A DNA stretch of 53,053 bases from Hahella ganghwensis DSM 17046 (lineage in GTDB: Bacteria; Pseudomonadota; Gammaproteobacteria; Pseudomonadales; Oleiphilaceae): the NCBI RefSeq assembly GCF_000376785.1, contig NZ_AQXX01000098.1:1-53053 (forward strand), given 5' to 3'. The position numbers were made by a program, and so were the translations under genes. A model generated the notes under the pieces. It made no database searches, was not told where the DNA came from, and saw only the letters and a program-made list of their open reading frames with translations. Shown one piece after another: positions 18,659-50,237 of this stretch (positions are counted from its first letter, which is position 1; every line of letters begins with the position of its first letter).

Positions 18659-18981
18659 AGAGGCGTATGGCTCACAATAGGTTAAATAGAGAGAATTCGA
18701 TAGGGCCTGTTGTTCCGCCCTCTAAAGTTTTAGAGTAGCGTTTTTGTTCTGAGCCACATTCTTGCCGGATCCAACGGGCGAGTGCGTTTGGCAGAATATT
18801 CAGATTCAGGCCTGGATCTGTTGATTCCGTGTACTTCAGATAGCTATGTTTTCCGGTATCTTAGTCTTGCTGATAATTGTGCGACTGTCCACTATTGTTA
18901 AAGTGACTTTTACGTATCAGGATAAGCGACTTTCGTGCCTCTATTTCTTCTCGTTCAGCGTGTTGAATTCAGGACTTCTGT
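18659..18981. other. Divergent intergenic region, RimK-like ligase / GNAT-C39
   Basis: 323 bp that must hold both promoters. A near-palindrome CTCTAAA-GT-TTTAGAG lies at 18720-18735 and could be an operator. I found no strong sigma-70 pair. Confidence 0.35.
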
Positions 18982-21977: not shown

Positions 21978-22337
21978 TTACTCGCCACCAGCTATATCAG
22001 CCTCAGTAGAGACATCTTCAGGGGATTCCTGATGAAACAAATCAAAATAGGCCACTTCTCTGAGAAATTCTTCTCTATAAATGGGCTTTAACAGTCCGGC
22101 TCCTACGATATCAACGGAACTGGGTTCCAATCCTCCCCGACTGCCTGGCCGTTGCCAGGGAACGATATAAAGAATCTTTGGCTGTTCCTGGTCACCGCGG
22201 ATTTCAGCCCCATCAATAACAAGAACCTCATCAGCTGCCTGTACATTGATAGCCATTCCAAACCAGCACACGCCACAGACCAAAGCTGACTTCTTTGCTT
22301 TCGGAACCAGGTAATTCAGAACCATTTTCAAATACAT
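21978..22337 (-). CDS. Small exported protein of the envelope operon
   Basis: 119 residues of unknown function. The N-terminal hydrophobic stretch ending V-Q-A-A looks like a signal peptide. The mature part has V-L-V-I-D-G-A-E-I-R-G and I-L-Y-I-V-P-W-Q, then an acidic end. The ATG overlaps the TGA of the upstream TPR gene (TGATG), so the two are probably co-translated; an in-frame ATG at 22326 is an alternative start. It is the last gene of the leftward envelope operon and no clear terminator follows. Confidence 0.75.
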   Translation of the reverse strand: MYLKMVLNYLVPKAKKSALVCGVCWFGMAINVQAADEVLVIDGAEIRGDQEQPKILYIVPWQRPGSRGGLEPSSVDIVGAGLLKPIYREEFLREVAYFDLFHQESPEDVSTEADIAGGE

Positions 22338-22963
22338 CAGTTCAGCCTCGCTTCAATATCCACTATCCAGAACTTGACTTGCTCTACCGGCTCCGGCTGC
22401 AGTAACTGGAAAGTTTTGTAATGCCCAACAGCTTCAGACAGCTTACCCATGTATAAATCATAAACAATCCCCAGATTCAAATGGGCGCTCGCATGATTCG
22501 GATTCAATGCGATGGCTTTGAGGTATTTCTGTTCCGCCTCGACAAAATTCCCCTCTCTTCTGTCGAGAAGTCCTAAAGCCACATAGGCATCGGCATTATC
22601 AGGATTTACTTCCAAAGCCCGCAGAAACAGCTTCCTGGCCTCGTCAAGATCATCTTCCTGTAATTCAAGCAGTCCAAGGTTCACATATGGACCGGAAAAA
22701 GAAGGATAATGACTGATCAATGCCTTGAAATTTTCACGAGCTTCCTCAGGACGACCGCTCTTCGCAGCATCCAGCGCCTGTCCAAACAACGCTGACGCCT
22801 CTTCAGGCACAACCGTTTCCGGCGCTACGGACTCTCTGGATGCATCCTGCGAACCGGATATTGTCGCTGCATCCTGTGTCGCAGAGGGCTGCATCGTACC
22901 GCATCCGGCTAAAGTAGCCAGCATGCAGATAACGGCTGATTTATAGAATGCTTTCACTGACAA
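22337..22963 (-). CDS. TPR-repeat lipoprotein (small)
   Basis: 208 residues as drawn. A lipoprotein signal peptide ends L-A-G-C-G. Four to five TPR motifs fill residues 60-185, with the pattern A-x-x-x-L-G-L-L-x-x-x-x-x-x-x-x-E-A-x-x. It is probably held at the outer membrane. The start is uncertain: TTG 22963 has GGAAGAG 7 bases upstream, and GTG 22957 is alternative. It overlaps the upstream TPR gene by 23 bp. TPRs bind other proteins, so a scaffold role in the complex built by this operon is likely. Confidence 0.88.
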   Translation of the reverse strand: MSVKAFYKSAVICMLATLAGCGTMQPSATQDAATISGSQDASRESVAPETVVPEEASALFGQALDAAKSGRPEEARENFKALISHYPSFSGPYVNLGLLELQEDDLDEARKLFLRALEVNPDNADAYVALGLLDRREGNFVEAEQKYLKAIALNPNHASAHLNLGIVYDLYMGKLSEAVGHYKTFQLLQPEPVEQVKFWIVDIEARLN

Positions 22964-25784
22964 CAGGGATCTCTTCCGTTCGTTGATATCTTACAGGGAA
23001 CAACTTCTCCAAGGCCTTAAAGCTGTTCTTAACCCAGGTGTCATACACACCATCCCAGCTTCTTTGCGCATTTGATTCATGAATACTGATCGCATCTTCC
23101 TCAAATGGATAGGCCTGATCTTCCAGCAGCAGTTCATATTGCTCCAATTCCAGGTCGGACAGGTTTGCCGGTCTTTCAGAATCCAGCAAATCACGACTGA
23201 ATTGGGCATATATCTCCCCCATCTGGAAGGTCGAGCGTGTTGTATATTCCGCAATTCTGTAGTTGGCAGCTTTCTTGTAGGCATTCATTGCCGCTGCCAT
23301 GGTTTTCTTCTTTCGGGCCAGATTCTGACTCAGTGGTGCTCTTAACTTGATCTGTTGAAACTCGGCGTAGGCATCATCCGCCAGCTCGATTGTCGCTCCT
23401 GCTGCCAGGAACCGCATACGATCAGATGCTTCATCTGAGTGACTGGCGTAACTCTCTTCCAGCTTCCGTAGCCAGAAATTGCGCTTTTCTGGCTCATTCG
23501 TGGTCTTATAAAGCCCAGCCAACACAAACTGCGCCTCCATTGCCAGGTCTGCTGGCTCAGGATAAGTGTGCGCATAATTGCGGTAGGTCTCAATTGCCTC
23601 CGCAACATAACCATTGGCTTCATAGATCTCTGCAGCCATCAGAAGTGACTCTCTTCGCACTTCCGGATCCTCATGGGAGCCCGCAATTGCCTTCAATTCT
23701 CTGGCCGCGTAATCCCACTGCTTGGTCTCGCGATATGCCACCGCCAGCTTCGCAGGAATATCCTGGCTAAGCTCATGTGCCGGATAACGAGCCCGAAAAT
23801 CTTCCAATACAGGAATCGCTCGATCATATTGTGACAGCTTCAGCATGTAAGTCGCGGCATCATACTGCGCATTCACCCGTATTTTCGCGTCCGGCGTCAC
23901 CAAACCGACACGAAGAAATTCATCAATCGCAGCCTCAGTCTCTCCCTGGGTCAGGAGCATTTCCCCCTGTCGATAAATACTGGCAGCCAAAAGCTCCACC
24001 GTGTCCACACGGCGTTGATCACCTGGCACCATCAGCGCGATGGATTGTGCGTAGGCCCGCTCAGCCAGCGCGTAATGATTCAATGCATACTCACTGTGGC
24101 TGATAATCAGCCACGCATTTAATTGAACTTCCTGTGATGGGAGCGGTTGCCACTCCGTCACTTTGGTTGCCGCCGGAATTGCCGCCAGATAGTCTTTCGA
24201 TTCAAACAGCGTTGCCGCAGCATTGGCCTGAACATCAAGCGCTCTGGGATCCTGTGGATAGTGGTCCACAAATCTTAGCTGGCTGGCAACTTTCTGTGAC
24301 GTCAGAATGTCCCGGGAGGCTTCCGGAGACTGACTGATCAACTCAGAATGGGTCGTAATGGCGGCATAACCCGCTTCCGCCCCCTCAGCAAAAGCCGGAT
24401 ATTCATAGGCTGCCCTTTCGTAAGCAACAATAGCTTGGTCATAGTCTCCAACCTCATATAACGTCTCTCCTAACAGGTATACCATCTGGGGAGTATTTGG
24501 AGAGTTTGGAAAGGTCTCCGCAAATTCACCGTAATAACGAGACGCCAAGCGGTATTCAGGCTTTGCATTGCCACCGGACTTACGTTGCTGCTGCGCACGG
24601 GCGTGATGATATTTGGCCAGCTCATCAATAAAGAGCGATAACTTCTCGTCAACAACCGCGGGGATTGGCTTCCCTCTACGTTCCGCCACTCTTCTTCTGA
24701 AGTCACTCCGAATACCATAGTTATCGACAAAACGGGCTTTTTCTTCCCTGGCCTCAGATACCAGCCCTTCCTTCATCTGTATATCGATGACTTTCGCCTG
24801 GTATTGCGGAGACCACAAACTATAGGGATGCAGACTGATATATTGCTGATAAAGTTTGATGGCATCGATTTCCTGCTCTCTGCTGATCAGCAGATTGGCA
24901 TAATTGTCATATACCAGATGCTCATAATGACGCTCACCAACTTCCTGGAACAGTTGTTGGACGGACTCAGCACCATCCATATAGGAAAAGGCAAACCCCA
25001 TTACCCGGAACTGGTCATTCAACAGTTTGGTGCGATCCTCATCAAGCGGTTCGTAGCTTGCCCGCTCCGGCAGCATCTGATCAAGCAGCGCCACAAACGT
25101 CTTCAACGCCTCATTAAAACTCCCCTGCTTGAACTGGCTCCAGCCTTTCATATAGAGCGCTTTTTCGAAAAACGTATTATTCGACCGCGCCCTGGAGACA
25201 ACCAGGTCAAAAGCCTTACCGGCTTCAGGGTAATCCCCCTGTGAGTACAAGATTTCACCCCGACGGAAGTTGGCCTCAATGGCATGATCAGATTCCGGAT
25301 ACTGGCCGACCAACTGGTCCAGGCGATCAAGTGTAGCATCCTGCTTGCCCTGAAGATCGTAGGCCTTGGATAACTGGTACAGAACCTGATCATTGTCAGC
25401 CCTGTCAGGGTAGGTTTCGAGAAGTGATTCGTATGTTTGAACTGTCAGCTCATATTCATCATATCCAGGCACAACTTCAGCGACTTCAGTGTCCTGGACC
25501 TCATCAGTCTGGAGCATTTTGAGATCAGCCAGTCGATACAGTATTCTGGCCCGGACCTCAGGATCGGCCACCGAGGGCAAAAGGTCCTGGTAATGACTGA
25601 TCACCTCGCTTATATCAACCTTGACCTCTTCTTCCTGTACCTCTTCCAAAGTAACAGGCTGAAGTTCGGCAAGTGTCGGCATGTTTCTGGCGTGATCTTC
25701 ATCATCTTTAGAGCCTATCATTGAGCAGCCTGCAAGGCTCCCCATCAGGATAGTGTGAATCATCAGGCGCTTCAGACTACTCAT
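22941..25784 (-). CDS. Large TPR-repeat lipoprotein
   Basis: 947 residues with a lipoprotein signal (residues 1-19, lipobox S-L-A-G-C). Many TPR and Sel1/YbgF-like helical repeats run through the protein, for example V-L-Y-Q-L-S-K-A-Y-D-L-Q-G-K and E-A-N-F-R-R-G-E-I-L-Y-S-Q-G-D-Y. It should sit on the inner face of the outer membrane. Long TPR lipoproteins of this kind occur in envelope machines such as the gliding-related complexes of myxobacteria (AglT type). The resemblance is general, not a proven orthology. The ATG overlaps the stop of the preceding TPR gene (ATGA) and has GGAGGG upstream. Confidence 0.9.
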   Translation of the reverse strand: MSSLKRLMIHTILMGSLAGCSMIGSKDDEDHARNMPTLAELQPVTLEEVQEEEVKVDISEVISHYQDLLPSVADPEVRARILYRLADLKMLQTDEVQDTEVAEVVPGYDEYELTVQTYESLLETYPDRADNDQVLYQLSKAYDLQGKQDATLDRLDQLVGQYPESDHAIEANFRRGEILYSQGDYPEAGKAFDLVVSRARSNNTFFEKALYMKGWSQFKQGSFNEALKTFVALLDQMLPERASYEPLDEDRTKLLNDQFRVMGFAFSYMDGAESVQQLFQEVGERHYEHLVYDNYANLLISREQEIDAIKLYQQYISLHPYSLWSPQYQAKVIDIQMKEGLVSEAREEKARFVDNYGIRSDFRRRVAERRGKPIPAVVDEKLSLFIDELAKYHHARAQQQRKSGGNAKPEYRLASRYYGEFAETFPNSPNTPQMVYLLGETLYEVGDYDQAIVAYERAAYEYPAFAEGAEAGYAAITTHSELISQSPEASRDILTSQKVASQLRFVDHYPQDPRALDVQANAAATLFESKDYLAAIPAATKVTEWQPLPSQEVQLNAWLIISHSEYALNHYALAERAYAQSIALMVPGDQRRVDTVELLAASIYRQGEMLLTQGETEAAIDEFLRVGLVTPDAKIRVNAQYDAATYMLKLSQYDRAIPVLEDFRARYPAHELSQDIPAKLAVAYRETKQWDYAARELKAIAGSHEDPEVRRESLLMAAEIYEANGYVAEAIETYRNYAHTYPEPADLAMEAQFVLAGLYKTTNEPEKRNFWLRKLEESYASHSDEASDRMRFLAAGATIELADDAYAEFQQIKLRAPLSQNLARKKKTMAAAMNAYKKAANYRIAEYTTRSTFQMGEIYAQFSRDLLDSERPANLSDLELEQYELLLEDQAYPFEEDAISIHESNAQRSWDGVYDTWVKNSFKALEKLFPVRYQRTEEIPVVSESIL

Positions 25785-28051
25785 GTGCTCACGCCCTCCT
25801 CTTCACTGGCAGTGGAAGGTGCTTGCTGGCTTTCATCATCAACACCTACTTCACCACTCTGGGTATCCACTTCCGGCTCTTTATCATCAGGGGAGGAAAC
25901 TTGTCCCGCAGGCGCGCCACTTCCACTGATTGGGCCGAGACTTTCTTCCAGGAGTTTGTCCGCTATACGCGCACGGGCAAGCTTGGAGGCATTCAAATAG
26001 GTCAGAATTCGCTCCTGCTGACCACGTAGCTCCTTGCGGGCCATTTCTGCAGCTTCTTCCTTACGGGTCTTCAGAGCTCGACTTACTCGCTGAGACAGCT
26101 GCTCAATACGCGGCTTGGCAGCGTCAACACGTTGCTCCAGCGTCGCAATCACTGTCTGGTCCGACATTAGCTGCGAGAGGCGCGATCTCCGCTCATTATA
26201 TTCACCAAGCGTTTCGTCCAGCTCTTTCAATGCTTTCCGGGCATCCCATGACTGGGCTGAAGAAGTCTCGCTGACCTGCCAGATAAAATGGCCCTCGATA
26301 CGACGTAGCTTCTCCCTGTACTCTTCAATATCGGGATCATTTTCCAGCTTTTTCAAACGGTCCTTAATCTCTTCTATGAGCCCCTTGAACTCCAGTTGCT
26401 CTTCATTAAGAAATGCCTGTCCGGATTCATCCTGAAGCCCTTGTTCCAAAATACCCGCCAATCGATCCCTTCTTTCCTGAATTTCCTGGGATTGCTTTTC
26501 CGCCAGACTTTCGGCTGTCTCTTTCACCCGTTGCTCTCGGGCTTGCTTGCGGGTTTCCACCATGACCTCAAAACTTCCGACACTGGATTTCCAGGTTTCC
26601 AGATCATTTTTCAGGAAAGTAAGCTCTCTGATATCTTTCAAAATGGTCAAAAACGCTTCAGAGGCAAACAAGGTTGCAAGATTTGCCGCAGCCGGCTGAA
26701 CCTTTAAACGCCCATAACTGTCTGTCGACAACTCTGGATCATCTATTGCCACTTTCCGGCCGGTTCCGGGTAGCGCCATTTTTCCAGCAAAATAATTTTC
26801 ATCCAGAGACCGGATCTCATCCAGCAGACTGGCACTGCTCTGATTATAGGCGTCGACAGCATTTCGATAAGCCTTGAGCGCGCGACCTTCCTGCTCCAAC
26901 TGCTCATATATGTAGGCAATGGCGTAGTGTGATTCCCGCACCCAGGGACTATCGGACTGCATGGAGTTCAATTGCTCCAACGCTCCCAGAGCCAACCCAA
27001 ATCTTTTATTGTTGGCTGCCGCGAGTGCGAAACCAAAAAGCGCTCTTTCTGACCAGGGACCGTTCAGCCGGATCTGGCGATAGGCCTTCATGGCTTGATC
27101 AGCCTCCCCCTTTTCCAGGTAGAGTGTTGCCTTGGTCAAGGCGACTCTATCCTGGAGTGCCAGGATCTCGCTTCTGAGAGACTCCTCGTCTTCATCCACG
27201 CTATCTTCCAGCAGCTCTTCATAGTCCTCGAATGAAATTTCCTGTAAGACCAGCAACGCTTCGTCAATCTCAGCGCGATCCAGCAAAGCCAGGGATTTAT
27301 TGAACGTCAGGTAAGACAACGAGAGTGACGATTCATCTACTTCGTCCCGCATTTCAGCCAGCAAATCATCCAAGGCATCCAGTTGCTTCAGGCCGATCAT
27401 GGTTTGGGCTTTAAGGTAGTAATACTCTTCAAGTCGCTCAGGCCATTCATCTTCAAGAAGCTCAAAGTCAACCTGCGCCAGAGAGGATTGGGCTTTTTCC
27501 CAATTCCGTCGCAGATAGTGAACTTTGGACAGATAGAACCATGCCTGCATCCGCACAACCGGGCTGACATATACCTCATCCGGCGCAGATTCAGATGACT
27601 CCTTTTTACTTTCCTGATCTAAGCCACTTTCCTGGGCCAAGACATTATCCAGTGCCAAGCCATTCTCTACATCCAGACCTTCTTCATCAGCTGAATGATC
27701 TTTATCAACCAAACCAACCGACTCCTGGTCTTCAGGTTGGCCTTCAGCGGGAATTGCCAGTAATTGATTAAATATTCTCTCTGCGGGCCCAATCATGCCA
27801 TAGGACAGCATCATGCCACCCTTCAGTACTTCCGGATGTGCACCATGACCACGAATCCCACCCCGAACCTCTGCAATGGCCAGATCAGTCAGGGATTTGA
27901 AATAGTCTTGCTGGTAGAAGGAAAACAACACTTCCCCATAGGCCAGATCATTTGCCCGGGTCGGAGGGGGGGCTTCCGCTTTAACGCCAAGACTGACTAG
28001 CGCAGCCAATAAGCCGATACAACTTGCTTTGGAGATCATTTCTGGGAACAT
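25781..28051 (-). CDS. Large periplasmic TPR/coiled-coil protein
   Basis: 756 residues: a signal peptide (cleavage near V-K-A), TPR-like repeats in residues 30-420 broken by an acidic insert near 110-155, then coiled coil in about 500-700 rich in E, R, K, Q and L. The tail has P, D and E. I chose ATG 28051 (GGGA upstream); TTG 28078 and ATG 28039 are also in frame. It follows its beta-domain partner by 10 bp. A second copy of this pair at 0.3-2 kb is truncated by an IS. It is probably a scaffold of the envelope system. Confidence 0.88.
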   Translation of the reverse strand: MFPEMISKASCIGLLAALVSLGVKAEAPPPTRANDLAYGEVLFSFYQQDYFKSLTDLAIAEVRGGIRGHGAHPEVLKGGMMLSYGMIGPAERIFNQLLAIPAEGQPEDQESVGLVDKDHSADEEGLDVENGLALDNVLAQESGLDQESKKESSESAPDEVYVSPVVRMQAWFYLSKVHYLRRNWEKAQSSLAQVDFELLEDEWPERLEEYYYLKAQTMIGLKQLDALDDLLAEMRDEVDESSLSLSYLTFNKSLALLDRAEIDEALLVLQEISFEDYEELLEDSVDEDEESLRSEILALQDRVALTKATLYLEKGEADQAMKAYRQIRLNGPWSERALFGFALAAANNKRFGLALGALEQLNSMQSDSPWVRESHYAIAYIYEQLEQEGRALKAYRNAVDAYNQSSASLLDEIRSLDENYFAGKMALPGTGRKVAIDDPELSTDSYGRLKVQPAAANLATLFASEAFLTILKDIRELTFLKNDLETWKSSVGSFEVMVETRKQAREQRVKETAESLAEKQSQEIQERRDRLAGILEQGLQDESGQAFLNEEQLEFKGLIEEIKDRLKKLENDPDIEEYREKLRRIEGHFIWQVSETSSAQSWDARKALKELDETLGEYNERRSRLSQLMSDQTVIATLEQRVDAAKPRIEQLSQRVSRALKTRKEEAAEMARKELRGQQERILTYLNASKLARARIADKLLEESLGPISGSGAPAGQVSSPDDKEPEVDTQSGEVGVDDESQQAPSTASEEEGVST

Positions 28052-28061
28052 TCCGGAGTCC

Positions 28062-28643
28062 CTACTCCCATTCCACAACTGAGAAATCGGGCTGATAATT
28101 CTTGGTGGAATCCCTGATCCTTAATTCCAGGGAGGTAATATCAGAACCCTTTTCGAAAGTTTTGGTGGTTCCGAGTTTATACTGACGATCATTCGGTCCA
28201 GTGCCGGTAATAAAGGCTGTTAGTTCATGCTCTCCACTTCGCAGATTGCCTGTATACAGTCTTTGAATCCCACCCCGATGAAGCGCTTTAATCTGCTTCT
28301 CTGTGTAGAGATAGGATGTCACGGTTTCACCGTCAATTTTCAACTCAACCGCATCCAGGTCCAAAAACTGCCCGACATCCACCGAAAGGAAAACCACAAA
28401 TTGCGTCGTGGCCGGAAACAGCAGATCTTCTTCCAGAATAAACAGGTCTCTGTTCAGATTGATCACTTCCTGCTTCAGATCCTCAACTTCATCCACCAAA
28501 GGCTTCTGCAGCTCATCAACACTCCCGGCTTCAGTTGGTTCCTGAGCAAATGCCAACACAGGCATCAATAACACCAGCAATCCCCATCGCGCTCTCACGC
28601 CCAATAACTCGCTTGCTGTTTTGAGAGTTGAAAATTTCAACAT
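28062..28643 (-). CDS. Exported coiled-coil plus beta-domain protein (intact operon copy)
   Basis: 193 residues: signal peptide to about F-A-Q, a short heptad segment (V-E-D-L-K-Q-E-V-I-N-L-N-R-D-L-F-I-L-E-E-D), then a beta domain with V-V-F-L-S-V, L-K-I-D-G-E, Y-L-Y-T-E and G-G-I-Q-R-L-Y-T-G-N-L. Homologues may appear under an AraC-regulator name; there is no helix-turn-helix here and the protein is exported. The start is ATG 28643 with GAGG upstream. It lies between the DUF3570 and TPR genes, and is a paralogue of 1433-1978. Confidence 0.85.
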   Translation of the reverse strand: MLKFSTLKTASELLGVRARWGLLVLLMPVLAFAQEPTEAGSVDELQKPLVDEVEDLKQEVINLNRDLFILEEDLLFPATTQFVVFLSVDVGQFLDLDAVELKIDGETVTSYLYTEKQIKALHRGGIQRLYTGNLRSGEHELTAFITGTGPNDRQYKLGTTKTFEKGSDITSLELRIRDSTKNYQPDFSVVEWE

Positions 28644-28655
28644 GGCCGCCTCGTA

Positions 28656-29807
28656 TTAATATTCCAACTTCAAGAAAAGACGCGTGACTAAGGCATCAAA
28701 CTCATAGAAAGGCTCATCGCCCACATCGTACCCTTCCTGTGTGATATCCCGAAAATCTTCGTACTCAAACTTCAGGTAATCGACAAACAGATTTATCTGA
28801 CCTTTCTCAATGAACGAAATCATTGATGGCTGGAATTCATAGGTCACCCCGAGCCCAAAGGTATGATTCGAGAAGGTACTTAATTCTTTATCACGTGCCA
28901 GAAAGTTCTGGGCGTTCTGAAAAGCAAACAGGTCACTGTAAAAATCTGCTTTGGTTTGCGAGTAGTAACGATATTTGAATTCGAAAATCCACTGATCGAA
29001 CGCAGGATGGATATATCCGATTTCATATTGATCGGCCCGGATTCCCCAAGTGTCGGAAAAGAATCGGTACTCACCTCGAATGGCGGCGCGATACGGCAGG
29101 TAATACATTCCCCGAATCGCTATAGCACGACTGGTTCGCGTGGTTGGGTATTGTTCGCTCTGAAAATCATAACCACGGGCACTATCACTGACAAACCGGA
29201 CCTGCCGATAGGCATTATTGAGAAACCCCTCATCGGTAATTGCCTCGAAATCCAGGTTAATAATCGCGTTCTTGGTGAGAATCTGAGTCACTCCCAAGCG
29301 GTATTGCTGACGATCGAGTTCTTCAGAAAAGTTGTCATCGCCCACTTTGCCCACTTCATCCCAGCCTTTGGTGTAGCCCATGGATATCGTGGTCAAATCT
29401 CCAAATACATCCTGACTGACATTGAAACTGAGAGCATTCGATTCATAGTCATTTTCTTCACTGTTGCTGTATGACACGCTCAGAATCGATTTGCCTGTCA
29501 GGTAATCCATCGCCACCGACGTCTGAATCCGCTCTTCTTCATACTCACTGGCGGTTGACTCTACATCAATGGAAGCACCACTGACGGAATCCACCAGATA
29601 TTCACCACTCAGGGAAAATGTCGAGTCGAAGTTCTTTCGCACTAGAATTGCCGGGCCGTCGATCAACTGACCGTCCTGATCATATCGATGATAAAGTACC
29701 TCGACCGCTTGCTCAGGCAACACTGCCGCGGGTGCCGGAAGACTCTGAATAACAAACAGACATGCCACCAGCAAAAAGAGCGGCTTGAGTACTTTCGAGC
29801 TATCCAT
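28656..29807 (-). CDS. DUF3570 outer-membrane protein with possible flavinylation site
   Basis: 383 residues: signal peptide ending P-A-P-A-A, then beta-barrel-like sequence with alternating aromatic strands to the end (F-L-K-L-E-Y). It matches the DUF3570 family, which occurs next to DUF4266, TlpA and ApbE genes. Residues 73-79 read D-S-V-S-G-A-S, fitting the D-x-x-S/T-G-A-S/T site that ApbE modifies with FMN. I chose ATG 29807, 4 bp past the DUF4266 stop; the longer frame overlaps that gene. The role may be to carry flavin or to form a pore at the outer membrane; both are inference. Confidence 0.88.
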   Translation of the reverse strand: MDSSKVLKPLFLLVACLFVIQSLPAPAAVLPEQAVEVLYHRYDQDGQLIDGPAILVRKNFDSTFSLSGEYLVDSVSGASIDVESTASEYEEERIQTSVAMDYLTGKSILSVSYSNSEENDYESNALSFNVSQDVFGDLTTISMGYTKGWDEVGKVGDDNFSEELDRQQYRLGVTQILTKNAIINLDFEAITDEGFLNNAYRQVRFVSDSARGYDFQSEQYPTTRTSRAIAIRGMYYLPYRAAIRGEYRFFSDTWGIRADQYEIGYIHPAFDQWIFEFKYRYYSQTKADFYSDLFAFQNAQNFLARDKELSTFSNHTFGLGVTYEFQPSMISFIEKGQINLFVDYLKFEYEDFRDITQEGYDVGDEPFYEFDALVTRLFLKLEY

Positions 29808-29811
29808 AACT

Positions 29812-30033
29812 TTAGTTACACCCACAGCCACCACCTGATCCGCCTTCGGCACCACGGGCACCTTCACGAGACTGATACATGTGATGCATATAAGAATTGG
29901 CAATCCCCATCCTTCCGAAGCTCATAATAGGATCAGCGAGGTTATCCCTTTCATAAGGCTTAACCCAGGGTTTGATTTCGCCACACCCCGCCAATACCAA
30001 TAGCGCCAGCAAACCTGCAAGGCCGTGTTTCAT
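29812..30033 (-). CDS. DUF4266 lipoprotein
   Basis: A 73-residue lipoprotein: signal with lipobox L-V-L-A-G-C-G, then V-K-P-Y-E-R-D-N-L-A-D-P-I-M-S-F and a glycine/cysteine tail ending G-G-G-C-G-C-N. This is the DUF4266 pattern. The three close cysteines at the end could bind metal or be a TlpA substrate; that is inference. ATG 30033 is chosen; GTG 30042 with AGGGA upstream is a real alternative. It lies between TlpA and DUF3570, the usual order. Confidence 0.92.
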   Translation of the reverse strand: MKHGLAGLLALLVLAGCGEIKPWVKPYERDNLADPIMSFGRMGIANSYMHHMYQSREGARGAEGGSGGGCGCN

Positions 30034-30046
30034 GAATCTCACGTCA

Positions 30047-30544
30047 TTATTCCCTGATCAGCTTTTTAACTTCTTTGGCATACTTTTCTTCAAATCCAGG
30101 CTGATAACCTTTGTGCAAATATCTCATGTTGCCATTTCTATCGACCATGATAGAAGTCGGCATGGCTTCTACGTTGTACATTTCACTCACCTCATTCTTG
30201 GTGTCGTAGAGGATAGGAAACGTCACACTGACATCATTCAGAAATTCATCAGCCAAAGAAGGGTCTTCATCCACATTGACCGCCATGATGGTAAAACCGA
30301 ATTTCTTGTACTTGTCATAGATTTCCTGCATCAACGGCATTTCCTGCCGGCAGGGGCCGCACCATGAAGCCCAGAAATTGATCATGACCACCTGCCCTTT
30401 ATGCTCACTGAGTCGCAGGTTTTTCTCCAACGAACTCCTTAGTGTGAAGTCCGGAGCTGCCCCTTCAATTTCTACTGCCTGAGCCATTGCGCCGAAGATC
30501 ATCACCGAAACGGCCAGTATTCCTGTCATCAGCGTCTTCTTCAT
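30047..30544 (-). CDS. TlpA-family periplasmic thioredoxin
   Basis: 165 residues: signal peptide to A-Q-A, then an AhpC/TSA-thioredoxin fold. The active site is W-C-G-P-C (Cys62 and Cys65) and the cis-proline region is V-E-A-M-P-T-S. TlpA proteins reduce disulfides in the periplasm, for example apo-cytochrome c haem motifs. That fits a region with several CxxCH proteins and the cysteine-rich DUF4266. The ATG has AGAGGA upstream. It is expressed with the genes on each side. Confidence 0.94.
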   Translation of the reverse strand: MKKTLMTGILAVSVMIFGAMAQAVEIEGAAPDFTLRSSLEKNLRLSEHKGQVVMINFWASWCGPCRQEMPLMQEIYDKYKKFGFTIMAVNVDEDPSLADEFLNDVSVTFPILYDTKNEVSEMYNVEAMPTSIMVDRNGNMRYLHKGYQPGFEEKYAKEVKKLIRE

Positions 30545-30600: not shown

Positions 30601-31254
30601 TTAGAAAAATATGGTTAATCCTGTCGTAAATTCCAGGTTATGAGTGGTTTTATCCGCCCCGAGAATATCGTTATCAAAAATGTGATCACGCATATCCAGC
30701 CTGAACGATAACCAATCTGTCGGCAGGAACTGGTAGCCCCACCCGAAGCTGGCAGTTAGACGATCATCCCCGGCGAACTCCGTTGCTCCCAGACCGGCCA
30801 GCACATAAAAATTGGTATTGAACGCATACTCCCGTCCAAAAAACGCCTCTCCGGGCAGGAAGTTATAGCCGATGCTCAGGTTATAGTACGTCAGGTCACG
30901 ATCATCATCCGGTAACAACTGAACATTACCGCTCAGAGTTTCAAAGCTGGTTTCCCCTGCTTCTGTCATACCATAATTAGCTTCCAGAAACAGATCCTCA
31001 CTCATGTGATAAGCTGCCTTGACACCAATCACGACATCGGACCCAAAGTCTTCAATGCTATATATCCCACCATAGATACCGATCTCAAAGTTTTCAGTAT
31101 CTATCAGGTCTTCCGTCACCGGCCGTGGTTCCACTTCCGGTTTGATAATAGGCTCATCTGTCTCAGAAGGCTGCTCCTGAGACCAGGCAGACGGCGTTGC
31201 CGCCGCGACGGATAAACCACTAATTAAAAGAACACGCTTAAACCAATTTTCCAT
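30601..31254 (-). CDS. Outer-membrane beta-barrel protein (OMP_myx_plus type)
   Basis: 217 residues: signal peptide to about W-S-Q, an acidic proline-rich linker (residues 27-50), then a barrel of about eight strands. The end is typical of the barrel group first seen in myxobacteria: L-S-F-R-L-D-M-R-D-H-I-F, then H-N-L-E-F-T-T-G-L-T-I-F-F. The last residue is Phe, as needed for BAM-dependent folding. It overlaps the SH3-barrel gene by 31 bp. The upstream gene carries the same barrel type, so the two are likely duplicates. Confidence 0.87.
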   Translation of the reverse strand: MENWFKRVLLISGLSVAAATPSAWSQEQPSETDEPIIKPEVEPRPVTEDLIDTENFEIGIYGGIYSIEDFGSDVVIGVKAAYHMSEDLFLEANYGMTEAGETSFETLSGNVQLLPDDDRDLTYYNLSIGYNFLPGEAFFGREYAFNTNFYVLAGLGATEFAGDDRLTASFGWGYQFLPTDWLSFRLDMRDHIFDNDILGADKTTHNLEFTTGLTIFF

Positions 31255-32006
31255 TCTTCCGCTTCTTCGTTATCGTCTCGCGTAGTCATAACCACATACT
31301 CCCGGTACTCAGCTCTCAGGAAATAGCGGTCAGTCAGGTAATATCTCAGTCCAAATCCATAATGGGTGGTGTCCTCATCCCGGTCTTCGACCTGAACGAG
31401 GGTCGCCTTGGGTTTGATATAGGCCATTCCTGTCCCCAATGTGAAGAAAGGCGATACTCTCCATTGAGGAAAAGGTTGGTGGACCAGATTGATATTCGCA
31501 ATCCAAATCTGAGAAAAGTCACCCAGCACCTGGGAGGAGCTGATTTCTGCAGACAGGTTCGGTGTAAACTGGTAACCCACATACAAGGTATTCACCGAAG
31601 CGTTTTCGAAACTCCCGGTGAGCACTCCAGCCTCCCAGTCCCTGGAATTGAAATCGTCAAATCTAGGATCGCTGAAAGCAACGGCCTCCCCTGTGGCGTC
31701 AAGGGTTTTCTCAATATCATTCCGATGCACCCAGCCTTCTTCACCCTGAACGGTCCTGACTTTTATCCAGTCAGTTTTTCTCTTCAGCAGTTCGATCCAT
31801 TCATCTTTTTCTGCCACATAAAAAACCGGAAAACCTCTTCCGGGACCACTTCGAATTTCAACATAAGGCTCTACCACCTGAGCTTGTTGTATTTCATCGT
31901 AAAAAGGCCAATACCAGGGCGCACCTTCACTTTCCTCCGCATTGGCAGAGATGGAACACACACCGAAAAACACAAGCCCACACCAGGCGAATAGCGAATT
32001 TCGCAT
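31224..32006 (-). CDS. SH3-domain plus outer-membrane beta-barrel protein
   Basis: 260 residues: signal peptide to A-N-A, then a bacterial SH3 domain. The SH3 part has V-E-P-Y-V-E-I-R-S-G-P-G-R-G-F-P-V, D-W-I-K-V-R and E-G-W-V-H-R. A C-terminal eight-strand barrel follows, ending I-G-L-S-V-F-F. SH3 domains in the periplasm often bind peptidoglycan, so it may link the outer membrane to the wall. ATG 32006 is chosen; TTG 32021 is also in frame. It lies 20 bp after the HzsA-like gene. Confidence 0.88.
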   Translation of the reverse strand: MRNSLFAWCGLVFFGVCSISANAEESEGAPWYWPFYDEIQQAQVVEPYVEIRSGPGRGFPVFYVAEKDEWIELLKRKTDWIKVRTVQGEEGWVHRNDIEKTLDATGEAVAFSDPRFDDFNSRDWEAGVLTGSFENASVNTLYVGYQFTPNLSAEISSSQVLGDFSQIWIANINLVHQPFPQWRVSPFFTLGTGMAYIKPKATLVQVEDRDEDTTHYGFGLRYYLTDRYFLRAEYREYVVMTTRDDNEEAEEWKIGLSVFF

Positions 32007-32026
32007 TGTTGAACTAAACAAGAGAA

Positions 32027-34762
32027 TTAATCCTGAGGTATATCAAATGGGTTATTGTAGTACTGAGCGCCGATATCCACCCATTCGGAAAGCAACTTCA
32101 GCTCGGCAGATGACAGATAACCTTCGTGGCTACCACCAGAGGCAAACAGATCGAAGAAATCACCACTCTGAAGTGCATTGCCGGCCCTCAGCGAAGGCGC
32201 TACCGCAACTGTCGTCATCAACGGAATCGGATTATCGTCAGCGTCCAACACAAGATTGCCGTCAGCGTCCGTTTCATATACTTGATTACCTTCGGCATCC
32301 AACACCGGGACCAAGACATCCTGAAGATTGCCGGAATCCATATCGATCTCCAGCTCTGCATCCGTAAAAAGAAGCTCCCGATATGCCTTGAAATGGTCGT
32401 CTTCCTGGTCAGAAGCACCATCGGTCAAATCCAGCTGTGCTGCAGGAATCATCGTGGCCGACATAGCATCGGTATCAGTGTGGCAACTGGTGCAGGTGTC
32501 TGCCACAAGATCACCATCACTGTCGGGACGAACCAGGCTCCACATAGGATGAATATGAGTTTCGTAGTTAATCACAATACGGCAGCTGCTGGTCCAGTTA
32601 TCGCTGCAGTTCTCACTGATAGGCGCAGCAGTTTCAAGGTCTGCGTAAGCATAGCTGAAATCAGCTTCTTTGCTACCCGCAGGAGCCCAATCATCGACAA
32701 AATTGATATCAGGTGTCGGTTCCCTGGCACTCTCAACGATTCGGGTTAATGTCTGGGCCATGGTCTCCCCCATATCAGCCGTCAGAGTCGTGTCCGCTCC
32801 GGCGAAGCCCAGACCTGTTGTTGGCGCTCCTTCATTAATGGTTGGAGCCTGACTGCCCGCTCTGCCGTGCGGCAACTCGCTGGTGGAGGTATGACATCCC
32901 ACACACTCCAGCTCTTCCCCGGGTTTTACCTCTAGCCAGTTATGGTGCTGTGATGAAATCCGTTTACCATCCCCGTTCAGAATACTGATGGCAAAGGCAA
33001 CATTGGCAGGCACTTTAAATCGTGCAGAACCATCGGGCTCAACAGGCACATACCCCAGAATTTCACGCATACGCAGGCTACCCGCCCGGCCGAAGGCAGA
33101 TCCCGGCACGTCAATCACATCCCTATCGGCACGGGATACTGGCTTTTCCAGTCGAATAAATCTCGCTTCTCTGGCAGAAGCAGGTGTCATCGTAGGATTG
33201 GACATCACGCTGAGTCCAACATCGGTCGAATCTGATCCATCAATATCATAAACACTCCTGATATCAACGATCCCATAACCTTCGTTAAAGAGCTCCTCAT
33301 CCACATCAACCCCGGCCACCACGTCTGGAATATAAGTCGGCAGGGGGAGATCCTGCATGATCACGGCATCACTGTACATGACACCTTCTTCTGGTTGCAC
33401 AATGGGTAATTGTGTGCCCGTCTGAGGATTCAGAATCCACAATCCATACAAGGGAGTAGCAGCTTCATAGTCTCCGGAATCTATACGTTCCTGCGTACAG
33501 GGATAGATAACCGGGTCCGGATCAGGTACTTCAACATCATCTTCCTGTGCAAGAACCAGGCGACATTGACTCCAGCTCACTACCAGGCGGCCGGTGCCAT
33601 CCAGCAAAGGCGCAGCAAAGGCATAGCGACCGGCAAGGTTGACGCCTTCACCGGTCAATATATCCTCACTGGTCAACGACTCCTGGGCTTCACTAACCGC
33701 CCCCAGATTGGAGTAAATTGGCTGCGTGTTATCCGTATACCCACTGATGTCCACCGCCACAAGATCCGCCCCGAAATCTGTTGCAACATATGGGCGCAGA
33801 CTGACCATGATCCGTCCATCTTCCATTTCCAGAGGCTTAATGAAGTGAACATCGGAATCGTCTGTACCGGTTTCATGAGAGTGATGACCGTAAACAATCT
33901 CAAGTTCAGTTCCGTCAGGATTCACCTGATACAGATCCATCGCGTCATTGCCTGGTCCACGGTTCCAGCGTGTAAACAGAATTTTCCCGTTTTCCAGCAG
34001 AATGGGGTCGAGATCGCTGCTTTGATTAAACGTAATCTGATGGATATCGGAACCATCACTTTCCATGACATGAAGATTTAGCGCCGGCTCGTTATTCGCT
34101 TCATTAAGTGCTGGGTATTGCGGCTTACCTTCATCCAGTAAAATCGCCTGAGACTGGCGCTGGCGGGTTGAACTGAAAACGATTCTTCCGTCCGCCAGGT
34201 ATTGAGGGGCAAGGTCCTGGCCGTCTTCAGCAGTATTGTCAGAAGTAATAACCCGCCTCAAAGTACCAGCGGTATGATCGTACTCCCAGATATTCCAGGT
34301 TGGCTGCTCATCGTCATCGGCATCCTCAATTTCAGGCGCTCGCATTGAGAACAACAACTTGGTACCGTCATAAGACGTGGAGAGATCTTTTATATCAAAT
34401 AGCACCTGGCCATCTTCGTTGGCAAATTCAGCCGCCGGAAATACGCCTGCAGTAACATGGCGCTCCTCAGCGCTTGGTGACGCCTGCCCTCTAACAAAAA
34501 GCCGGGCACCAGGCTTGAACTCTAATGGATCACGCACATCATCTCTGACAATTTCGCCATCTTCGTCCGTAGGTATCTCCCGCTTGACATAAGCGATCGG
34601 GAAATCCTCGACCACTGGATCAGCCCCCTGACCGGAAGACCCGATTCCACCGCCACCACAGCCGGTGATTACTGAACAAATGAGTCCGATAAGCACTGTC
34701 TTACCAATAGGACGGCCTTCTTCACCGATAGAGCAAATATCGTTCTCGAGACCAGCTTTCAT
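32027..34762 (-). CDS. Di-haem HzsA-like lipoprotein with beta-propeller
   Basis: 911 residues from ATG 34762 (GGAG 8 bases upstream); the longer frame adds 45 residues of no clear value. A lipoprotein signal ends V-I-T-G-C-G-G-G-G. The middle part has PD40/TolB-like propeller blades (M-E-S-D-G-S-D-I-H-Q-I-T-F-N) and looks like the middle domain of hydrazine synthase alpha. Two c-type haem motifs follow: C-V-G-C-H (32891-32905) and C-T-S-C-H (32480-32494). There is no evidence of anammox metabolism, so it is likely a general surface or periplasmic redox protein. It is first in the leftward operon. Confidence 0.87.
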   Translation of the reverse strand: MKAGLENDICSIGEEGRPIGKTVLIGLICSVITGCGGGGIGSSGQGADPVVEDFPIAYVKREIPTDEDGEIVRDDVRDPLEFKPGARLFVRGQASPSAEERHVTAGVFPAAEFANEDGQVLFDIKDLSTSYDGTKLLFSMRAPEIEDADDDEQPTWNIWEYDHTAGTLRRVITSDNTAEDGQDLAPQYLADGRIVFSSTRQRQSQAILLDEGKPQYPALNEANNEPALNLHVMESDGSDIHQITFNQSSDLDPILLENGKILFTRWNRGPGNDAMDLYQVNPDGTELEIVYGHHSHETGTDDSDVHFIKPLEMEDGRIMVSLRPYVATDFGADLVAVDISGYTDNTQPIYSNLGAVSEAQESLTSEDILTGEGVNLAGRYAFAAPLLDGTGRLVVSWSQCRLVLAQEDDVEVPDPDPVIYPCTQERIDSGDYEAATPLYGLWILNPQTGTQLPIVQPEEGVMYSDAVIMQDLPLPTYIPDVVAGVDVDEELFNEGYGIVDIRSVYDIDGSDSTDVGLSVMSNPTMTPASAREARFIRLEKPVSRADRDVIDVPGSAFGRAGSLRMREILGYVPVEPDGSARFKVPANVAFAISILNGDGKRISSQHHNWLEVKPGEELECVGCHTSTSELPHGRAGSQAPTINEGAPTTGLGFAGADTTLTADMGETMAQTLTRIVESAREPTPDINFVDDWAPAGSKEADFSYAYADLETAAPISENCSDNWTSSCRIVINYETHIHPMWSLVRPDSDGDLVADTCTSCHTDTDAMSATMIPAAQLDLTDGASDQEDDHFKAYRELLFTDAELEIDMDSGNLQDVLVPVLDAEGNQVYETDADGNLVLDADDNPIPLMTTVAVAPSLRAGNALQSGDFFDLFASGGSHEGYLSSAELKLLSEWVDIGAQYYNNPFDIPQD

Positions 34763-35325
34763 ATCAGGAACTCCACTTATGGAAAAATGAACATCTTTAA
34801 TAACTGACCACAAGCTTCCAGAAAAAGTCATGACTGAGTATTTACAGCTGGCCATGCTAACAACTACCTTTGGTATAATTTTCCCAAATACAACCACAGA
34901 GATATCTTTATCGTCTGATGAATCTGTACTAACGCTTTCAAAAGAGTATTTAGAAGCTATATATAGAGCCAGACTATCAATGTAACCGAGTGTAATATCG
35001 TGAGTTTTATCACAAAAACACGAACGCCTGTTCTATTACAATCAACCCCAGTTGTAAACCTCGATATCACTTTCAACAATATATTTTGTTGAAATCAAAG
35101 GGAAACCCATGCCGCCATAATCCCAAGGAACTACAACTTTAAACAAACAATAGTCCTTATTGCCTAGTACTTAGGATAGGTTATTTAATATGCATTCTGG
35201 GTTAGTATTAAAATTGATTAGGGACAGTCAGTCTTTTCTTCGGGAAATGCAATTCAAAACATTATATTGCATTAGAAAATTTAATCGCCATGAGTTCGAT
35301 CCTTATTCATGCCAGGGCAGTTATT
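34763..35325. promoter_or_regulatory. AT-rich divergent control region of the two envelope operons
   Basis: 563 bp between the HzsA-like gene (leftward) and the haem-protein gene (rightward). It is clearly more AT-rich than its surroundings. It holds CTATATATAG at 34957-34966, a perfect 9-bp inverted repeat TTTCAACAA-N6-TTGTTGAAA at 35071-35094, and AATGCAA-N14-TTGCATT at 35246-35273. The promoters of both operons must lie here. I could not assign -35/-10 pairs with confidence. Confidence 0.55.
35071..35094. repeat. Perfect 9-bp inverted repeat, likely operator
   Basis: TTTCAACAA and TTGTTGAAA flank TATATT, giving 24 bp of dyad symmetry in the middle of the divergent region. No T-run follows, so it is more like a protein-binding site than a terminator. 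Confidence 0.55.
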
Positions 35326-36615
35326 ATGTATAAGAAGTATCTTAACCGCACACGCCACACAACACTAAAAAAGCTGACTGCCCTCGCACTGGTCATTACA
35401 GCCTCCTCCAACAGTTGGGCTTTGGGCACCGTTGATACCCCCGAGAAAGCAAAACGCTTCTTCGACCGTATCGCAGGCGTACCGCCAACACCAGCAGAGA
35501 TCACGGAAATCATGAACGCCGCGACGCTTGATGACGCCGCTGACGTCGCCTTCAGAACCCCCGACTTCTACAATGTCACCCTGAAGAACATGATCTCACC
35601 TTGGACCAACGAAGATCAGACCCCGTTTGCGCCTTTGAACGACTACACCGCGACGGTCATCGGCATCGTTAAAGATGATCGGGATTTTCGAAGCGTTCTG
35701 TACACGTCTGATGTTTATGTCGCTAAGTCCAGCTATGGACTGGTCGGCTATTCGTTGTCGGACAACAACCACTATCTGGCCATCGAAGGATTGATGGATC
35801 AGGGAATCAGCCTGGAAACCATTCTGACCCCCAGAGCTCAGGCACTACCTTCTGGCGCTGCAGCAGGTGTAATGTCCACCCGGGCGGCAGGCCGGGCGTT
35901 CTTTAGTGGTGGTACCAACAGGGCCATGCTACGTTTTACGCTGATTAACCACCTGTGCATGGACCTGGAGCAACTGAAAGATACTTCTCGCCCGGCCGAC
36001 CGCATTCGTCAGGACGTATCCAGAAGCCCCGGCGGTGACAGCAGTATTTTTCTAAATAACTGCGTCGGCTGCCACAGCGGGATGGATCCATTAGCTCAGG
36101 CCTTTGCCTATTACGATTATGACTACGGCGGGGACGACGACAATATTGAAAACGGAACTCTGGTATACAATAGCGCTGGCACAGTAGATCCGGCAACCGT
36201 CGAAATTCTGGAAGACACCCCTGCCCTGAACCGGGTTTCTGATCCTAACGTGTTATATCGGGTACAGGAAAAATACTTCTTCAACAACGGCACATTCCCA
36301 TTCGGGTACGTTACTACTTCGGATCAATGGACCAACTACTGGCGTGTCGGTCCTAACGAAGGAGTTGAGTGGAATGCTACCGGAGATGCTCCGAACGGAT
36401 CAGGAACCGGTGCCAACAGCCTTGGTAGAGAGCTTGCCAACACAGAGGCGTTTGCACAGTGCCACGTTAAGCGCGTTTTCAAAACAGTTTGCCTGCGTGA
36501 TCCTGAATCAAGCGATATTACAGGAATCATTACGACAATGAAGTCTGAGTTCATGGCCAATTACAACCTGAAGACACTGTTCGCTCTGGCCGCTGAAGAA
36601 TGTGCCGCAGACTAG
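35326..36615 (+). CDS. Exported c-type-haem protein of the DUF1549/DUF1588-like group
   Basis: 429 residues from ATG 35326, which gives a normal signal peptide (ending S-N-S-W-A); the frame also opens at 35290. The early part F-F-D-R-I-A-G-V-P-P-T-P-A-E-I resembles DUF1549. The later A-G-V-M-S-T-R-A-A and N-N-C-V-G-C-H-S-G-M-D-P-L-A-Q-A-F-A-Y-Y-D resemble DUF1588, with one haem motif at 36061-36075. These domains are typical of planctomycetal secreted proteins of unknown role. It heads the rightward operon and lies 9 bp before the next gene. The family link is from memory and moderate. Confidence 0.78.
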   Translation: MYKKYLNRTRHTTLKKLTALALVITASSNSWALGTVDTPEKAKRFFDRIAGVPPTPAEITEIMNAATLDDAADVAFRTPDFYNVTLKNMISPWTNEDQTPFAPLNDYTATVIGIVKDDRDFRSVLYTSDVYVAKSSYGLVGYSLSDNNHYLAIEGLMDQGISLETILTPRAQALPSGAAAGVMSTRAAGRAFFSGGTNRAMLRFTLINHLCMDLEQLKDTSRPADRIRQDVSRSPGGDSSIFLNNCVGCHSGMDPLAQAFAYYDYDYGGDDDNIENGTLVYNSAGTVDPATVEILEDTPALNRVSDPNVLYRVQEKYFFNNGTFPFGYVTTSDQWTNYWRVGPNEGVEWNATGDAPNGSGTGANSLGRELANTEAFAQCHVKRVFKTVCLRDPESSDITGIITTMKSEFMANYNLKTLFALAAEECAAD

Positions 36616-36624
36616 GCGAAAAAC

Positions 36625-42688: not shown

Positions 42689-42723
42689 AATGGCTATTTG
42701 AACGTTATTATCAGGGACAGACC

Positions 42724-48217: not shown

Positions 48218-49264
48218 TTACTTCTGTGGTGCAGTCAGCTCCGACGAATAGTGCATCTTTCTCTGCTGGTCGACGATAATGGCATCTATTCCCGGTAACC
48301 GTTCCACAAGTTCAAGACCCTTCTCTACCCCCAAAACAAAAACGGTAGTGGAAAGTGCGTCAGTGGTGGTTGAGTCTGGCCCTATAATAGTGACGCTCTG
48401 AACCTCCCCGGCTGATTTACCGGTCTTCGGAGAAATGATGTGATGGTAACGAACCCCGTCCTGAACGAAGTAACGTTCATAATCCCCTGAGGTGGATATG
48501 GCAACTTCTTCCAAAGGCAGTAAAACCGCACTCGCATCTTCTCTTCTGGGGTCTTTGATAGCCACAATCCAGGGTTTTCCGAGCTTATTCCCAATAAGCC
48601 TGGTATCGCCACCGGCACTTACCAGGCCAGACGTTATACCCGCCTTTTTAAGGATACCAATAGCCCGATCGACAGAATATCCCTTGGCGATCCCTCCAAG
48701 GTCGATATAAACATGTGAGTGAGAAAAGTATATGGTGGACTTTTGCTCATCGATCACCACATGCCGGTAGTTGATAGCCTCCAGATTAGCCTCAATCTGA
48801 CTTTGATCAGGTGCCCGTTTATTCCGATAGTCATAATAGCGGCCGATGGAGGCATAAGTAATATCGAAGGCACCATGACTGAGTTGTGACACCTGTAGTG
48901 ATTTCTTAATCAGTTGAATTAGCTCGGAGCTTACTTTTACCGGCGCCTTTGATGCCAAACGATTCACTTCGGAAAGTTCGCTGCTTTCTATATAAGGGCT
49001 CATTGAGGCTTCAAGCCTGAGAAATTCTTCATGGACCTGATCAATCAGTTCGTTGGCCTGCAGCTCTGTCTCTCCCCAGAGTTCAACATGGATGCGCGTT
49101 CCCATCCCATTCCATGAGCGCTCAAACCACTGCGCATTAGCCGTAGAAGTCAGCAACAGTAATGCCACACATACAAAGCCGCACAATCTATCCAGACTAT
49201 TCAGACTATTCAGACTATTCAGACAAGAGACTTTGACATTGGGTTGCCCTGAGATTCGCTCCAT
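48218..49264 (-). CDS. apbE: FAD:protein FMN transferase
   Basis: 348 residues. ApbE moves FMN from FAD onto a Ser/Thr of exported proteins. Matches are G-A-F-D-I-T-Y, D-L-G-G-I-A-K-G-Y-S-V-D, S-A-G-G-D-T-R-L-I-G, A-I-S-T-S-G-D-Y-E-R-Y-F, H-H-I-I-S-P-K-T-G and T-D-A-L-S-T-T. A signal peptide lies at about 25-43 (T-S-T-A-N-A). ATG 49264 is preferred (GGATGG upstream); the frame opens further at 49399 and then overlaps the LysR gene end. Just before the hydrophobic core an in-frame 9-bp repeat gives L-N-S-L-N-S-L-N-S-L-D. A likely target is the DUF3570 protein. Confidence 0.93.
   Translation of the reverse strand: MERISGQPNVKVSCLNSLNSLNSLDRLCGFVCVALLLLTSTANAQWFERSWNGMGTRIHVELWGETELQANELIDQVHEEFLRLEASMSPYIESSELSEVNRLASKAPVKVSSELIQLIKKSLQVSQLSHGAFDITYASIGRYYDYRNKRAPDQSQIEANLEAINYRHVVIDEQKSTIYFSHSHVYIDLGGIAKGYSVDRAIGILKKAGITSGLVSAGGDTRLIGNKLGKPWIVAIKDPRREDASAVLLPLEEVAISTSGDYERYFVQDGVRYHHIISPKTGKSAGEVQSVTIIGPDSTTTDALSTTVFVLGVEKGLELVERLPGIDAIIVDQQRKMHYSSELTAPQK
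49193..49224. repeat. 9-bp tandem repeat inside the apbE signal region
   Basis: Three and a half perfect copies of CAGACTATT. In the apbE frame each copy gives Asn-Ser-Leu, so copy change keeps frame but alters the length of the signal peptide n-region. Confidence 0.9.
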
Positions 49265-49349
49265 ATTTCCATCCAAAAACACGATCAAAAACTTTCTCCA
49301 AGGAACAACATCTGACGATACTGCATAAACTTTACGTGGCGACCGCATT

Positions 49350-50237
49350 CTATCGGCTTGGAGGAAAATCCAGAAACCATTCCTGCAGAAAAGCCACACA
49401 TTTTACCAGACTCGGCGGCAAATGATGCCGGGCAGGATATAAAGCATAGAGTACCAGCCGTGGCCTATTAGCCTTCGTCAGAATCTCGACGACCTCACCT
49501 GCTTCCAACATTTGCCGGCATACAAAGTCCGGAACAAAACCAACCCCCAGACCAGCCTTAACAGCCTCCATCATAAAAGGTGTACTGTTGACTCTTAAGT
49601 TTCCCGTAACCTGCACCCCTTCGCCCAAAGGCCAAACATCCTTTCCCTGAAAATAGCTATAGATAAAGCAGTTATGCTGCGCCAGATCCTCAGGCTCAAC
49701 AATTTTGGTATGGGACGCCAGATAGGACGGCGCAGCACAGACCCGATAGCTAAACTCCGTCAGTGGTTTACCCACATATCCAGTATCAATCTGCCGACTG
49801 GAAGCCCTGAATCCCAAATCGAACCCCTGCTCAATCAAATCGATGGGCTCATCATCCAAATGAATATCCAGCTCAATTTCGGGATATGCAGCCATAAACT
49901 CTGCCAGCACTTTGGCAAGATCGGTTAATCCAAGTGCCATTGGCGCATTAATCCGCAGCTTCCCTCTGGGAAGACTCTGCTGATACTGAACATAACTATC
50001 CGCATCAGAGAGCTTTATCAGAATTTCCCGACAGTGCTGCAGATACCCTTCTCCCACCGGAGTCAGTTGGATACCCCTTGTGGAACGATGCAGAAGACGA
50101 GCCCCAATCTGGTCCTCCAACCTGGAAACTTCTTTACTGATCATTGATTTTGAAGCATTCAGCTCTTCTGCCACCCTGGTGAAGCTACCGGTTTCAGCCA
50201 CTCTGACAAATAACTGTATCGCTCTGAGTTTATCCAT
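49350..50237 (-). CDS. LysR-family transcriptional regulator
   Basis: 295 residues from ATG 50237, the typical M-D-K-L-R-A-I-Q-L-F-V-R-V start; ATG 50249 is also in frame. The winged helix is A-E-T-G-S-F-T-R-V-A-E-E-L-N-A-S-K-S-M-I-S-K-E-V, then R-L-L-H-R-S-T-R-G. The effector domain begins near P-R-G-K-L-R-I-N-A-P. It is divergent from a GST gene, with a perfect 7-bp inverted repeat between them, so it probably regulates itself and the GST run. The inducer is unknown. It has the CrgA/DmlR-like look common for regulators of redox and detoxification genes. Confidence 0.92.
   Translation of the reverse strand: MDKLRAIQLFVRVAETGSFTRVAEELNASKSMISKEVSRLEDQIGARLLHRSTRGIQLTPVGEGYLQHCREILIKLSDADSYVQYQQSLPRGKLRINAPMALGLTDLAKVLAEFMAAYPEIELDIHLDDEPIDLIEQGFDLGFRASSRQIDTGYVGKPLTEFSYRVCAAPSYLASHTKIVEPEDLAQHNCFIYSYFQGKDVWPLGEGVQVTGNLRVNSTPFMMEAVKAGLGVGFVPDFVCRQMLEAGEVVEILTKANRPRLVLYALYPARHHLPPSLVKCVAFLQEWFLDFPPSR

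Follow-up and report, generated by a model that had tools for sequence, protein, structure and literature searches.

A candidate ApbE flavinylation site in a predicted DUF3570 outer-membrane barrel of Hahella ganghwensis, probably at the outer mouth of the barrel

Results

The DUF3570 protein encoded at 28656..29807 (minus strand) of the Hahella ganghwensis DNA analysed here, a stretch of 53,053 nucleotides that we call the window, is likely to be an outer-membrane barrel that holds an ApbE-attached FMN at its outer mouth and would pass electrons between the periplasm and the outside. The motif and its conservation, the protein families, the gene order, the ApbE clade with its linkage, and the co-loss behind this reading are observed in the sequences. 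The barrel and the side on which the site lies are predicted, and we infer FMN loading, because of homology, conservation, linkage and co-loss, as well as the electron route.

The 383-residue protein matches PF12094.14 with an E-value of 1.2e-38 and 133.4 bits, against a curated cut-off of 25. Its residues 73-79 read DSVSGAS (site 1; 29571..29591, minus strand), a match to D-x-x-[ST]-G-A-[ST] that would carry FMN on Ser79. Counted from the start ATG at 29807, the motif occupies bases 29591-29571, exactly where the original prediction had put it. Among 100,000 shuffled versions of the DUF3570 protein, 0.2% contained D..[ST]GA[ST], the strict motif, and 2.6% the looser [ST]GA[ST]. A motif scan of window ORFs of at least 120 aa found the strict motif nowhere else and the loose one in one further ORF, of 1697 aa. 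The Pfam match starts at residue 87, so site 1 lies just outside its aligned part. Eight residues on from site 1 is a second, glycine-less site, DVESTAS (site 2; residues 81-87; 29547..29567, minus strand), whose D81 and S87 are kept in all 44 rows of the alignment described below. The prediction was right about site 1, and missed both site 2 and the prior publication on this family. In that publication, the DUF3570 protein of C. luteolum is flavinylated by its own ApbE, by experiment (PMC8238504), so the central idea was already known for the family. The serines of both its [ST]GA[ST] motifs had to be replaced before labelling vanished, and two such motifs are reported to be conserved in ApbE-associated DUF3570 proteins (PMC8238504). 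The window protein has one, since its site 2 is STAS; a single site still counts as an ApbE motif.

DUF3570 matches were found in 71 of 274 genomes that sample the class. With the window protein as phmmer query against 82 loci plus the window, the family split into two types. In the classic type, apbE lies 0.7-1.6 kb downstream of the DUF3570 gene in 22/32 cases. The window type, which comes with the gene row described below and was defined by a phmmer score above 200 bits against the window protein, gave 46 rows. L003, which duplicates the window, and L047, whose site 1 is cut by a contig end, were dropped, leaving 44 rows, the window included. The long ORFs of L004 and L011 were excluded from one alignment, and 40 stretches were picked by hand from the DUF3570 matches, leaving out, for example, the partial-profile matches G017, G052, G076, G093, G101, G136 and G264. 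The closest relative found, from Hahella sp. CCB-MM4, is 81% identical.

Window-type DUF3570 proteins form a divergent subclade in which two sites stand almost in tandem; in the window they read D73xxSGAS79 and D81xxSTAS87. At site 1, D..[ST][SGA]A[ST] is present in 42/44 rows, with the glycine mostly replaced by Ser, and site 2 follows its looser pattern in 42/44; the exceptions at both sites are the same two loci, L078 and L079. The sequence [ST]GAS is much scarcer, with 10/44 rows at site 1 (three of them Hahella: the window, L034 and L035) and 5/44 at site 2, and it is absent from both sites in 29/44 rows, which counts against the flavin reading. The prediction had named a poorly conserved motif as evidence against itself, and what was found goes half that way: the strict form is kept in few rows and the looser form in nearly all. 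A tree that leaves out the loop puts the Hahella rows, with weak support, among DxxSSAS rows, so the glycine may have been regained there. In another ApbE target, a Gly-to-Ala change is reported to leave about half of the flavinylation (review PMC12052999), and Ser at the glycine position is therefore no clear disqualification.

The AlphaFold model of the window protein, made from a nine-sequence alignment (pLDDT 74.0), has 16 barrel strands by count, and a second model, made after a Steroidobacter protein was put at the head of that alignment, has the same strand order (pLDDT 72.7). An N-terminal helix at residues 4-22 precedes the barrel in the model of the window protein. In both models the two sites take up the last part of strand 3 and the loop that joins it to strand 4, on the side opposite the termini. 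Loops on the side of the sites are 2, 11, 2, 2, 29, 4, 26 and 17 residues long, and those on the other side 2 to 9. The long loops of such barrels are on the outside, and as all loops of more than 9 residues are on the side of the sites, this should be the outer side by the usual barrel rule. The side was assigned from strand parity and loop lengths; the site loop (residues 77-89) has pLDDT below 50, and the two models share one alignment. The sites are thus probably at the outer mouth of the barrel and not in the periplasm, which the original prediction had them face.

An outer-membrane barrel, as that prediction had proposed, agrees with the beta-barrel of the models and with the generic outer-membrane barrels, porins and others, that Foldseek returned (best E-value 5.5e-8, with a TM-score of about 0.45). 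Since the TM-scores are mostly 0.3-0.5, we do not infer a transport substrate. A sequence search for a solved relative of the barrel returned none, with a best E-value of 0.46. Positions conserved in at least 90% of rows make up 8/17 of the site loop against 31/222 of the strands, and 9/29, 12/26 and 0/17 of other loops on the same side.

The DUF3570 gene belongs to a row on the minus strand in which genes overlap or are at most 56 bases apart. The row begins with an HZS-alpha-like protein with two CxxCH motifs by count (32027..34897; PF18582 3.7e-17), followed by an SH3 plus barrel protein (31224..32021; PF13505 9.4e-10, PF08239 1.7e-08), a 217-aa small barrel-like protein present in 44/44 rows (30601..31254; PF13505 1.9e-05, below the curated cut-off), a TlpA-like thioredoxin (30047..30544; PF08534 5.6e-30), and a small DUF4266 protein that ends in CGCN (29812..30033; PF14086 2.7e-18). 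After DUF3570 come a 193-aa conserved protein with no Pfam or NCBIfam match (28062..28643), a 765-aa protein with TPR matches below the curated cut-offs (25781..28078), a 947-aa TPR protein (22941..25784; PF13174 6e-24) whose PDB matches are designed and consensus TPR chains, and a 208-aa ORF, TPR-like by eye, that has relatives at the equivalent place (22337..22963). DUF4266 and the thioredoxin-like gene thus cluster with the DUF3570 gene, and the C-terminal CxC of DUF4266 is kept in 42/42 relatives. The 193-aa and 765-aa genes are downstream in 24/44 rows, and ExbB, ExbD, a further ExbD and a TonB-like gene occur in 11, 11, 11 and 7 of the 38 loci examined, many of which have truncated flanks. 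Two genes related to those for the 765-aa and 193-aa proteins are also present at 281-2026 of the window.

The HZS-alpha-like gene was found by tblastn in 32/36 window-type loci among L042-L079 (absent from L047, L069, L070 and L078) and by BLAST clustering in 42/45 loci. It is retained in L079, which has lost the flavin site; its presence is thus independent of the flavin, a point against the flavin reading. Beyond it are two divergent genes, at 35290-36615 (one CxxCH) and 36625-39210 (two CxxCH). As a side observation on 32027-39210, one of these two divergent CxxCH proteins has a LamG-like domain, and the HZS-alpha-like and CxxCH genes are kept next to window-type DUF3570 genes in many loci.

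The flavin transferase gene apbE of the window, assigned by family (PF02424 4.3e-85), clade and linkage, is at 48218..49399 on the minus strand as the longest ORF; the original prediction had correctly noticed it in this region, as 48218-49264 from a Met of its choosing. It is 19 kb from the DUF3570 gene, on the same strand and with other genes between, which counts against the flavin reading. An apbE within five genes on either side, the span used in PMC8238504, is therefore not found here, and the one that is present belongs to a linked clade.

At least one ApbE match was present in each of the 45 window-type genomes searched. In a tree of 94 sequences (the best-matching ORF per stretch, with 6 of 100 matches excluded, five as partial and one as below the cut-off), the window ApbE falls in a clade with support 0.893 that has one member in each of 36/45 genomes. 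Members of this clade lie within 35 kb of a window-type DUF3570 gene in 21/36 cases, versus 2/58 for other ApbEs (Fisher 2e-9, with ancestry ignored, the 35 kb limit chosen after the distances were seen and some cases hidden by contig ends). The linkage extends to glycine-less DUF3570 carriers: L043, L046, L049 and L037 have a linked-clade apbE about 1 kb off. This ApbE clade is present in each of the 15 rows that have [ST]GAS at one site or the other, versus 20/29 of the remaining rows (Fisher 0.018, ancestry ignored). The genome of the window has two apbE genes and three FMN_bind genes; the second ApbE copy, on C128, is beside an FMN_bind gene and falls in an NQR-type clade.

Loss of the site coincides with loss of other components in L078 and L079, two genomes of one family. 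Their sites are broken (EQISGLP and ESIRGLP), DUF4266 and TlpA are missing from the operon, and a linked-clade ApbE is absent, while the barrel, the 217-aa protein and the TPR block are kept; this co-loss is that of a single lineage. The lineage offers a natural comparison for the role of the flavin module. Counting against the flavin reading, seven genomes without this ApbE clade retain a Dxx[ST]SA[ST] site, DUF4266 and TlpA, and in L042 and L072 the site is present with no TlpA match. DUF2271 was considered as the true partner of this ApbE clade and rejected: it occurs in 5/45 genomes, three of them above the cut-off, and in the genome of the window there is none.

Discussion

We propose that, after export of the DUF3570 protein, periplasmic ApbE would move FMN from FAD onto Ser79 of DSVSGAS, and perhaps weakly onto Ser87 of DVESTAS as well. 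Loading would take place before or during insertion of the barrel, and in the folded barrel the strand 3-4 loop would hold the flavin at the outer mouth. There it could link periplasmic electron partners, with the DUF4266 CxC protein, the TlpA-like thioredoxin and possibly the HZS-alpha-like c-heme protein as candidates to feed it, to a partner in the outer membrane or outside it. Much of the interpretation in the original prediction survives here, namely the motif, the predicted barrel and an apbE that proves to be of a linked clade, and its periplasm-facing site does not.

The same loop might be a structural feature of the barrel that carries no flavin, the SGAS of Hahella being a neutral variant of SSAS and ApbE having another target. 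The 29/44 rows that are glycine-less at both sites fit this view, as do the place of the Hahella rows among SSAS rows in a weakly supported tree and the seven genomes that retain the site without this ApbE clade. However, the clade is linked to window-type DUF3570 genes, glycine-less ones included, and site and ApbE are jointly lost in L078 and L079. The window has no second strict motif in its ORFs of at least 120 aa, and DUF2271, another ApbE target, is absent from its genome. Moreover, the C. luteolum relative is flavinylated by experiment (PMC8238504) and Gly-to-Ala in another target left about half of the flavinylation (PMC12052999). We consider an unflavinylated loop unlikely.

If the flavin is attached, it could still face the periplasm and serve a periplasmic thiol relay, with nothing outside. 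ApbE, DUF4266 and TlpA would, judging by their families, all work in the periplasm, and both models give the site loop low confidence, but the strand order and loop lengths of both models favour the outer side, and we regard this arrangement as rather doubtful, if a little less so than a loop with no flavin at all. That the NQR-type ApbE of the genome flavinylates DUF3570, with the window apbE serving a different target, seems very unlikely. The two apbE and three FMN_bind genes allow for it, as does the separation of the window apbE from DUF3570, yet the C128 copy falls in the NQR-type clade and adjoins an FMN_bind gene. The window copy belongs to the DUF3570-linked clade, and its spacing of 20 kb recurs in a second Hahella. 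We favour as likely a barrel that is flavinylated by the window ApbE and holds the flavin at its outer mouth.

The window shares with the published DUF3570 system its families, its ApbE motif and the C-terminal CxC of DUF4266 (PMC8238504). The clusters described there combine ApbE with a thioredoxin-like protein and a DUF4266 protein that ends in CxC, and some of them include DsbD; a scan of 15 window proteins turned up no DsbD. In contrast to that system, the window has one strict site rather than two, an apbE 19 kb off, and a DUF3570 protein of a divergent subclade, whose Pfam match covers profile positions 113-382 only. Its row also adds the TPR block, the c-heme protein that resembles HZS-alpha and a pair of small barrel-like proteins. 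The job of DUF3570 was rated uncertain in 2021, and the main text of that paper never uses the term 'barrel' (PMC8238504). In the literature searched, DUF3570 is named in this paper alone, and DUF4266 likewise in a single paper. A 2024 paper (PMC11334425) models other flavinylated domains, and in the sections that we draw on mentions the outer membrane once and does not name DUF3570. Relative to the published DUF3570 case, the window differs in its attachment sites, in the genes that surround them and in the likely outward position.

The TPR block resembles the Agl-Glt core (GltC, GltD, GltE, GltG, AglQ, AglR, AglS), a likeness in gene content and not an assigned membership. The function of the gammaproteobacterial Agl-Glt core complex was called unknown in 2011 (PMC3169522). 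TPR and small barrel-like proteins are common to both, and in some window-type relatives the same stretch also holds ExbB, two copies of ExbD and a TonB-like gene. In the window itself, unlike in that complex, ExbB/ExbD genes are not beside the TPR block, and flavin or heme genes go unmentioned in the parts of PMC3169522 that we draw on. Our literature search found no paper that brings together four of the five subjects AglQ, GltC, thioredoxin, cytochrome and gammaproteobacteria, and none tying hydrazine synthase, outer membrane, thioredoxin and ApbE together. On the left-end side of the CCB-MM4 locus (L177), TPR, ExbB, two ExbD and TonB-like genes form a second Agl-Glt-like cluster, which adjoins MoxR-like and VWA-like genes, named by eye.

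Porin-cytochrome conduits such as MtrCAB combine an outer-membrane barrel with redox cofactors. Here, the putative cofactor would be a covalent flavin on the barrel itself rather than a multiheme plug, and electron transfer is a proposal. If true, a flavin at the outer mouth would be a testable electron path over the outer membrane with no heme plug; the gene row suggests its partners and joins the flavin module to a TPR/ExbB-ExbD type of complex. It is a far more tentative thought, and one we rather doubt, that the barrel is a trans-outer-membrane conduit in which flavin replaces or complements heme, that it forms one unit with the HZS-alpha-like protein, the thiol relay and an Agl-Glt-like machine, and that ApbE accepts DxxSSAS. 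If natural glycine-less DxxSSAS were indeed accepted and labelled, the motif now used for predicting ApbE targets would be too narrow, and the search for flavinylated proteins would need a wider one.

Other genes of the window deserve a mention. Between the heme genes and apbE, 41036-47709 encodes an autotransporter-type protein that carries Ig/cadherin-like domains, together with a repeat-rich protein of 1677 aa, in an order shared with a second Hahella (L179). At 17189-20187, a RimK-type ATP-grasp ligase-like ORF is beside an acetyltransferase-C39-like peptidase fusion, both recognised by eye.
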